Positions 32,554-33,518 of a DNA stretch of 38,024 bases are shown here, in pieces (position 1 is the first letter of the stretch; the number at the start of each line of letters is the position of its first letter). The DNA comes from Bacteroidota bacterium (GTDB lineage Bacteria > Bacteroidota > Bacteroidia > UKL13-3). The notes beneath the pieces are model-generated. The model did no database searches and was not told the origin of the DNA. It saw only the letters and a list, made by a program, of their open reading frames with translations. Where the stretch lies: positions 1 through 38,024 of the forward strand of contig JAUXUD010000019.1 of NCBI GenBank assembly GCA_030680835.1, given 5' to 3'. The translations under genes were made by a program, and so were the position numbers.

Positions 32554-33216
32554 TTAAGAATAAAATTCATCTTCTTTCCAATTTTGAGGGTTATTAATGA
32601 TATAATTCCGGATATTTTCAAATTCTATATAATTGCGAATTATGTAATCATGAAATCGGCCTTGCCATTTAAAACCTACATTTATTTTGTGTATTTCAAA
32701 TGCAGAACGCCCTTTATACCATCGTATAATTCGTGAAATGTTTTCATTAATCATCGGATTTTTATCACCTGAAATACCCCCTGGATTATAAATGCCTGTG
32801 GATTGTAAATCCAAAGGTAATGGAGGCGGCAATATTGATGGCAATGGTGCCTGTAGAGACGCGATTAATCGCGTCTCCGTGGGGGCCACCGTATCTCCCT
32901 GAAAAACATTTTGGTTAATTCCAACACCTGATTTATCAAAAATAAAAATCATATGAACATGATTGGGCATAACCACAAAATTACCCAATTCAGTAAATGG
33001 AAATTGTTTCGGTATTTCGGTCAAATATTGCCCAGCCAATCTACCTGTTTCATCCAAATGCATGGTGAGTTTACCCGATGAATCAGAAATAATTTCCCCA
33101 AAAAAATGTTTCCGTTTTCTTGTGCATATTGTTATAAAATAGGTAGCATCGCTGCCATAATCCCAGTTTTGCAACCTGGCCGATCCGATGCGATATTTGT
33201 TTTTATATTTAATCAT
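32554..33216 (-). CDS. REP-associated (RAYT / IS200-like) HUH transposase
   Basis: A 220-residue Y1 transposase-like protein of the RAYT group. The N-terminus YRIGSARLQNWDYGSDATYFITICT is typical of Bacteroidota members. The HUH motif is His86-Val-His88 in VVMPNHVHMI. The C-terminal helix is GRFHDYIIRNYIEFENIRNYIINNPQNW; Tyr191 is the nearest candidate for the nucleophile, slightly displaced from the usual position. RAYTs are single-copy, domesticated relatives of IS200/IS605 TnpA that act on REP palindromes. A REP copy encodes residues 113-121 (TETRLIASL) within an expanded Pro-rich linker (about 100-155). Two more REPs lie 80-290 bp upstream. No IS ends are seen. Confidence 0.85.
   Translation of the reverse strand: MIKYKNKYRIGSARLQNWDYGSDATYFITICTRKRKHFFGEIISDSSGKLTMHLDETGRLAGQYLTEIPKQFPFTELGNFVVMPNHVHMIFIFDKSGVGINQNVFQGDTVAPTETRLIASLQAPLPSILPPPLPLDLQSTGIYNPGGISGDKNPMINENISRIIRWYKGRSAFEIHKINVGFKWQGRFHDYIIRNYIEFENIRNYIINNPQNWKEDEFYS
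32854..32877 (+). repeat. REP palindrome inside the RAYT gene
   Basis: TAGAGACGCGAT (32854-32865) followed by its complementary arm to 32877, with 11-bp pairing including the TTAA centre. It matches the REPs at 33295 and 33478 except in the central bases. It is in frame with the transposase and encodes part of TETRLIASL. Confidence 0.9.
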
Positions 33217-33294
33217 AAATATTTTTTAATCAACGTAATTTTTTAACCACTGTATATTTTTAATCAACGTAACAAAATTTTGGTTATATGATGG

Positions 33295-33318
33295 TAGAGA
33301 CGCGATTTATCGCGTCTC
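33295..33318 (+). repeat. REP palindrome a
   Basis: Arms GAGACGCGAT (33297-33306) and ATCGCGTCTC (33309-33318), with the asymmetric flank TA on the left. It forms an inverted pair with REP b at 33478-33501, as in bacterial BIMEs. It lies 80 bp upstream of the RAYT start. Confidence 0.9.
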
Positions 33319-33477
33319 CTGATGTGCCACGTTTTCTCGTGAATCACATAACCCGTTTTAACGTGTTTCCCGATTTATCCCGTTTCTCGATTTATCATAT
33401 TATTCGTTTTATCATGTTTTTCGTTTCATTATGATTCCCGTTTTATCGTTTTTAAACACGAAATTCGTTGCACCCAT
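33319..33477 (+). repeat. Degenerate REP-half-like tandem cluster
   Basis: About 160 bp between the two intact REPs consists of roughly 16-17-bp units such as CCGATTTATCCCGTTTC, CGATTTATCATATTATT, CGTTTTATCATGTTTTT and CCGTTTTATCGTTTTT. These resemble the right half of the REP (CGATTTATCGCGTCTC). I read it as a cluster of decayed partial REPs, although a low-complexity origin is possible. Confidence 0.55.
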
Positions 33478-33501
33478 GAGACGCGATAAATCGCGTCTCT
33501 A
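33478..33501 (-). repeat. REP palindrome b (inverted to a)
   Basis: Arms GAGACGCGAT and ATCGCGTCTC at 33478-33499, with TA on the right. It is thus the exact inverse of REP a, including the asymmetric dinucleotide. Confidence 0.9.
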
Positions 33502-33518
33502 CATGCGATAGGGGATAC

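Follow-up and report, generated by a model that had tools for sequence, protein, structure and literature searches.

Why does a putative transposase gene of a Bacteroidota bacterium (GTDB lineage UKL13-3) carry, within its own reading frame, a palindrome that recurs across its genome, and does this copy have a role there? The initial annotation of the DNA stretch analyzed here (38,024 nucleotides of contig JAUXUD010000019.1, assembly GCA_030680835.1; the window from now on) recognized a RAYT transposase with a REP palindrome inside the gene and two more upstream, and it offered two explanations, namely, autoregulation through the gene or its mRNA and a fortuitous insertion tolerated in a loop.

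Sequence and predicted structure support a RAYT-type enzyme as the product of the gene (Table 1). The ORF matches the Pfam family PF01797 (Y1_Tnp) with 25.5 bits, against a cut-off of 23, and the NCBIfam model NF047646 (REP_Tyr_transpos) with 40.3 bits, under the cut-off of 80, the best stretch covering residues 158 to 210 only; the long linker may be what lowers this last score. The AlphaFold2 model (38 rows, mean pLDDT 79, pTM 0.71) had fold matches to the IS608 and ISDra2 transposases and to 4er8, TnpArep with a REP hairpin (rank 4, E 5.6e-5). This E. coli TnpAREP shares the HuH/Tyr fold and has a REP hairpin as its partner, and its YIYINP motif aligned with YIINNP of the window protein, although the sequence match is weak (E 0.14) and the identity in the fold alignment is 16%. 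The 4er8 chain has 165 residues and lacks a long linker. As judged from sequence and the fold match, the Y1_Tnp fold, the HuH motif, and the single Tyr expected of a Y1 HuH enzyme are all present in the window protein. The initial annotation had also described a long Pro-rich linker between HuH and Tyr. This linker varies among homologues and is mostly predicted to be disordered: the ten-residue blocks between residues 101 and 150 have mean pLDDT values of 39 to 61, and the REP-encoded residues fall in a stretch (108 to 125) with a pLDDT of <50. A phage origin was considered as well and is not indicated, with one match (31.6% identity) in 50,697 phage records.

Table 1. Coordinates of the putative RAYT gene, its motifs, and the REP copies in the window
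Feature	Position	Strand	Evidence or remark
RAYT/TnpAREP-like transposase gene, 220 aa (putative)	32554..33216	-	ATG ORF; PF01797; AF2 fold match
HuH motif NHVH, residues 85-88	32953..32964	-	Translation; H86 and H88 unchanged across an alignment of 38 sequences
Tyr motif YIINNP, residues 205-210; Tyr205 presumed catalytic	32587..32604	-	Y205, N209, and P210 invariant in 38 sequences
Variable Pro-rich linker, ~residues 94-152, mostly predicted disordered	32761..32937	-	pLDDT; length variation in relatives
In-frame REP within linker; stem 32856-32877, GTA foot 32853-32855	32853..32877	+	Minus-strand reading TETRLIASLQ
Upstream REP, REPIN first half, GTAG foot at left	33294..33318 (palindrome 33297-33318)	+	
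Upstream REP, REPIN second half, CTAC foot at right	33478..33502 (palindrome 33478-33499)	-	

The REP is indeed in frame within the transposase gene, with the start of the stem now corrected to 32856 and the three preceding bases assigned to the foot. The in-gene palindrome is perfect and takes up codons 114 to 121, read ETRLIASL; the plus strand, i.e., the template strand of the gene, bears its GTAG foot. The two further REPs reported upstream were recovered too, and they form an inverted pair with the GTA feet pointing outward, i.e., a REPIN (33294-33502). The arm GAGACGCGAT occurs six times in the window (≤1 mismatch) against 0.63 expected, making up both arms of the three palindromes, and none of 100 shuffles reached six. 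Folded as plus-strand DNA, the in-gene REP had a z score of -5.0. No REP arm was found in the window on the 3' side of the gene at ≤1 mismatch, the REPs being only upstream and inside. Between the two upstream REPs (33352-33453), there are four copies of a degenerate 17-bp repeat, CCCGTTTTAACGTGTTT-like.

Exact copies of the window palindrome number 20 in its own genome (4.30 Mb); 40 related genomes, including 18 from the same genus, have none. With up to three mismatches, the genome holds 67 copies (0 in the backward control), so that the lack of other REP copies, which the initial annotation had named as evidence against its proposal, is not observed. We located 50 of the 67 (≤4 mismatches) in retrieved stretches. 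Many of these are single-footed (GTA), in which case the loop dinucleotide mostly corresponds to the side that bears the foot; copy number and the GTA feet of the placed copies mark it as a GTAG-footed, genome-repeated REP. Six of the 50 lie within ORFs of at least 90 amino acids: the RAYT itself; an ORF (L011:3160-4551, in C39) that we take to be kynureninase-like, with the REP in frame at codon 368 and read RDAIHRIS; three ORFs with the REP near or before their likely starts (codons 4, 5, and 47); and an ORF that is short and of doubtful status. The kynureninase-like name and the ORF starts are our own reading. The in-frame copy in the kynureninase-like ORF indicates that tolerance alone can place REPs in genes.

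There are three RAYT-like genes in this genome and three REP families, one with each. The family of the C5 RAYT (L002:1471-2241) is found at 34 places, and four of its nine exact copies are inside the linker of that gene, where this different REP, GTAGGGGCGAATTGCATTCGCCC, stands three times direct and once inverted and where direct 84-nt repeats are found. The C56 family (17 places) has one REP at each side of the C56 RAYT (L003), whose short linker contains no REP; the flanking near-perfect palindromes are at 1132-1199 (68 nt) and 1778-1839 (62 nt), and one of the two overlaps the 3' end of the RAYT ORF.

In-frame REPs between HuH and Tyr have been reported for TnpAREP subclass 2.4 (Quentin et al. 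2018, PMC6006769), and therefore the in-gene REP is an already described phenomenon. As characterized in that paper, the subclass (group 4 of Bertels) has the motifs NH[IFV]H, WQ, and YIxNNP and a variable insertion from HuH to Tyr with in-frame REPs; eight additional residues where alphaB ends are likewise listed for it. All three motifs are found in the window RAYT (WQ at residues 184 and 185), and the variable insertion with in-frame REPs is found in it and in its relatives. The REPs of the subclass are described as GTAG-footed like those of the window, some being double-footed, and its hosts are Cyanobacteria, Bacteroidetes, and other phyla; the window gene differs in having REPs 5' and inside, with none found 3'. 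The window gene seems to us best explained as a RAYT belonging to subclass 2.4 (group 4), an assignment made by motifs and linker rather than by placement in a tree. GTAG REPs, and REPs inside genes, were also described by Di Nocera et al. 2013 (PMC3733652), with the same GTAG foot, palindrome, association with RAYTs, and copies inside ORFs, although the intragenic cases stressed in that text are in replication and repair genes, unlike the RAYT genes here. The Rickettsia palindromic elements, as presented in the same paper, are likewise palindromes in frame in likely functional genes, but they are CGTC-tagged, and CGTC repeats reportedly have no association with transposase genes. The description of subclass 2.4 consulted in PMC6006769 is silent on paired substitutions, on the use of two reading frames, and on copies confined to the gene. 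To it we add these three and the frequency of linker hairpins, a comparison that covers open-access full text and makes no claim of their absence from print.

Homologues were found in 80 of 196 genomes, including that of the window. The RAYT loci comprised 60 of those homologue places of that search that had no locus yet and 80 named loci, the best 80 of 534 confirmed relatives. A first set of 92 distinct RAYT ORFs (66 with both motifs kept) grew to 168, from which 137 with both motifs were analyzed; the other 31 were excluded as partial, broken, or variant in a motif. Hairpins with arms of at least 10 were found in the linkers of 109 of the 137. The initial annotation had singled out homologues with the linker and no palindrome as speaking against its proposal, and such genes do exist: 28 of the 137 at this arm threshold and, among the 23 members of the clade of the window gene, L032 and L145. 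In total, there were 130 linker hairpins in 33.7 kb over the 137 genes, against 2.2 in codon shuffles. Their density was 3.85 per kb in the linkers, 0.35 in the N part, 0.23 in the C part, and 0.075 in ca. 900 other ORFs of the same loci (the control set ended at 901 ORFs, the last one being in the base count but unscanned).

The feet fall into codon phases 61, 19, and 0 times on the sense strand, and the phase with zero counts is the one in which the TAG of the foot would be read as a stop. There was no recognizable foot in 43 of 161 linker hairpins. Ten genes have a linker with two REPs in which both senses are represented by single-footed copies, and in nine of them the feet are directed outward (one-sided sign test, P = 0.011), a REPIN-like arrangement. 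Six relatives (L144, L064, L019, L037, L090, and L030) have an in-frame palindrome at a second site, ORF residues 52 to 67, some 40 to 50 residues before HuH, that may relate to the alphaB insertion of subclass 2.4. At the extreme, a 368-aa RAYT relative (L031:1498-2601, genome G022) contains 12 in-frame REP copies in a repeated unit of ca. 33 residues.

The clade of the window gene (n = 23, picked by the motif R[WG]YKG[RK] among the 137 genes) has hosts that include members of several Bacteroidota families as well as a Balneolota and a Parcubacteria bin. A REP of the window type is inside the gene in 21 of the 23 members, L032 and L145 being the exceptions, and it is read in two frames: 13 genes translate it as VETRLIASL-like and eight as RDAINRVST-like peptides. 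Where two genes of one frame agree in an amino acid, their codons within the REP are identical in all 471 comparisons for the first frame and in 108 of 122 for the second, against 58.5% and 55.3% for core codons, an identity that is partly by construction as the copies were preselected at ≤3 mismatches from the consensus. Recent insertion could account for another part of it. On the tree of the clade, the frame label needs five changes (five to six in the bootstrap), although the starred branches force only one, and 11 of the 20 inner branches are left open. Independent REP insertions in the clade are therefore likely, albeit not proven, rather than one ancestral insertion in a single frame.

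We compared the stems of seven gene pairs, hand-picked as close and palindrome bearing, and three of them had paired, amino-acid-changing substitutions that preserve the stem. L131 (from the isolate Flavobacterium tagetis) and L158 differ at 14 of 564 nucleotides, and their stems are GAGACG...CGTCTC and GATACG...CGTATC. Of the five bases that differ from HuH to the NPM motif, two are synonymous and lie outside the REP, one belongs to a foot, and the other two make up a paired change that converts E to D and S to Y. In L027/L129, one paired change (D to G and V to A) is the only difference in the REP, and the stems of L063/L054, with 137 of 546 nucleotides different, differ by another (Y to H and T to A). 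As to the remaining pairs, L063/L066 differ at 68 of 558 nucleotides and at none of the 28 REP positions, L063/L071 at 53 of 558 with one unpaired REP position, L134/L132 keep the stem of the second copy while the first is degraded in L134, and L132/L143 have a shared first copy that differs in the loop. The stems of L153, L140, and L031 are off the consensus on both sides and still fully paired. One-sided inner changes also occur (L141, the first copy of L134, and the third copy of L191), and many in-gene copies are unpaired at the outermost position. No other copy of the changed stems of L158 and L027 was listed in their genomes. At the level of sequence, then, the use of the same DNA in two frames and the paired amino-acid-changing substitutions show that it is the stem, rather than the peptide, that is preserved.

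In the 21 clade genomes with an in-gene REP, copies were counted at ≤3 mismatches over whole genomes and located with the retrieved loci; most of these genomes are drafts, and copies outside the gene may therefore be missed. All copies found were in the gene in six of the 21 (G075, G129, G130, G198, G205, and G209), at least one in-gene stem being paired 10/10 in five of the six and both stems being 9/10 in G075. With G199, G203, G206, and G211, in which the remaining copies are ≤400 bp away, these make 10 of 21, and in G022, 12 of 14 copies are within the L031 gene. Elsewhere the REP has spread, to 67 copies in the genome of the window, 34 in G201, and 26 in G207. Of the clade genomes without an in-gene REP, G208 has 17 copies and G009 has 10 matches to the 16-nt core, three of them 250 to 550 bp upstream of its RAYT. 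The inner REP is thus not needed for spread, as the genomes of L032 and L145 hold 10 and 17 without it. Outside the 21, one of the two copies of G136 separates two pieces of a RAYT-like gene, the single copy of G063 is 146 bp from a RAYT match, and G070 and G175 have none.

For other clades, exact 22-mers of the type GAGACG-N10-CGTCTC were searched. G025, G043, G041, and G077 each gave a single match to the in-gene palindrome, namely, the one inside the gene. Both copies of G152 fall within the called ORF, although one is close to a start that is uncertain. G116 has four copies, two of them inside the gene, a third immediately upstream, and the last 3.6 kb off, and G072 has two, one inside the gene and the other 66 bp past it. 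G165 and G108 have copies or near variants elsewhere too, and this exact search gave only other palindromes in G018, G059, and G065.

The reading that we prefer, with a probability of roughly 0.6, is that of a RAYT with its cognate REP in frame in a disordered linker, kept as a DNA hairpin, travelling with the gene, and acting as a source of the REP population. A REP or REPIN copy would have entered the linker, where an in-frame insertion spares the fold and stays open in two of the three frames. Since then, it would have moved along with the gene, kept as a DNA hairpin rather than as a peptide. Together with the REPs inside and beside it, the gene would arrive in a new host as a self-contained source from which an intergenic population could grow, as may have happened here (67 copies). 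Three elements of this reading are inferred: binding or cleavage of the in-gene REP by the enzyme, selection on the hairpin, and seeding of the population by it. The reading has against it the two clade members without an inner REP, the one-sided inner changes, and the footless hairpins mentioned above.

The main competitor, to which we give somewhat less than an even chance, is that the inner copy is a functionless bystander: REPs and REPINs often land near RAYTs, only in-frame insertions in the linker survive, and template switching keeps the stem. The in-frame REP in the ORF presumed to be kynureninase-like, the predicted disorder of the linker, and the two clade members without an inner REP all fit this, and repeat duplication also lengthens linkers, as in L031 with its 12 hairpins and L002 with its direct 84-nt repeats. 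The published account of subclass 2.4 reads the linker as tolerant (PMC6006769), and template switching, as described in PMC8794818, can maintain stems and produce paired changes without selection for function. The fortuitous insertion of the initial annotation therefore explains the place and agrees with print, but alone it leaves unexplained that the same REP recurs in 21 of the 23 clade members and that in some genomes no copy was found outside the gene. It also has to face a density of linker hairpins ca. 50 times that of other ORFs and the fully paired stems in five of the six gene-only genomes. A weaker objection concerns the feet. The 3' foot is kept and its mirror lost in the window, L134, L143, and L158, and the 5' foot is kept in the first copies of L132, L143, and L049; arm-to-arm repair would not maintain such a foot, although decay to one foot looks alike. 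The stem would be kept either by the use that the enzyme makes of it as single-stranded DNA or by arm-to-arm template switching.

Autoregulation, by the RAYT binding the REP in the mRNA or by the REP slowing translation, is very improbable, even if a hairpin within the coding sequence with a strong stem (z about -5, computed as plus-strand DNA) would suit it. The 64 mismatches of the linker hairpins include 13 G-T and 13 A-C, so that the sense strand displays no wobble asymmetry, and selection at the mRNA level was rejected on this ground. Moreover, one-foot hairpins have their foot antisense in 38 cases and sense in 18 (copies of one gene counted separately). The window copy is of the antisense kind, its sense strand having no 5' GTAG foot and the template strand having GTAG, and this part of the initial annotation found no support. 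E. coli TnpAREP is described as needing GTAG on single-stranded DNA, while the S. maltophilia enzyme still binds GTAG mutants (PMC8266576). Least credible of all is a function of the REP-encoded peptide as a protein part, since VETRLIASL-like peptides do recur in many linkers but a given REP sequence yields different peptides in its two frames, the paired changes leave the stem intact at the cost of the peptide, and the encoded residues of the window protein have a pLDDT below 50.

A hairpin kept as DNA fits better than one kept as peptide or as mRNA. The wider proposition that selection maintains, within the RAYT genes of this branch, a DNA copy of the substrate of the enzyme, that enzyme and hairpin are inherited and transferred as a unit, and that the inner REP or REPIN seeds populations after horizontal transfer is possible but on the doubtful side. 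If the pattern is neutral, RAYT linkers would document, as a natural archive, how REPs insert and how template switching repairs palindromes. If the gene does carry its matching REP, the co-inheritance of RAYT and REP would be automatic, which bears on how RAYTs and REPs are matched and on the origin of REP families, and the pairs L131/L158 and L027/L129 would be ready tests of whether specificity follows the in-gene stem.
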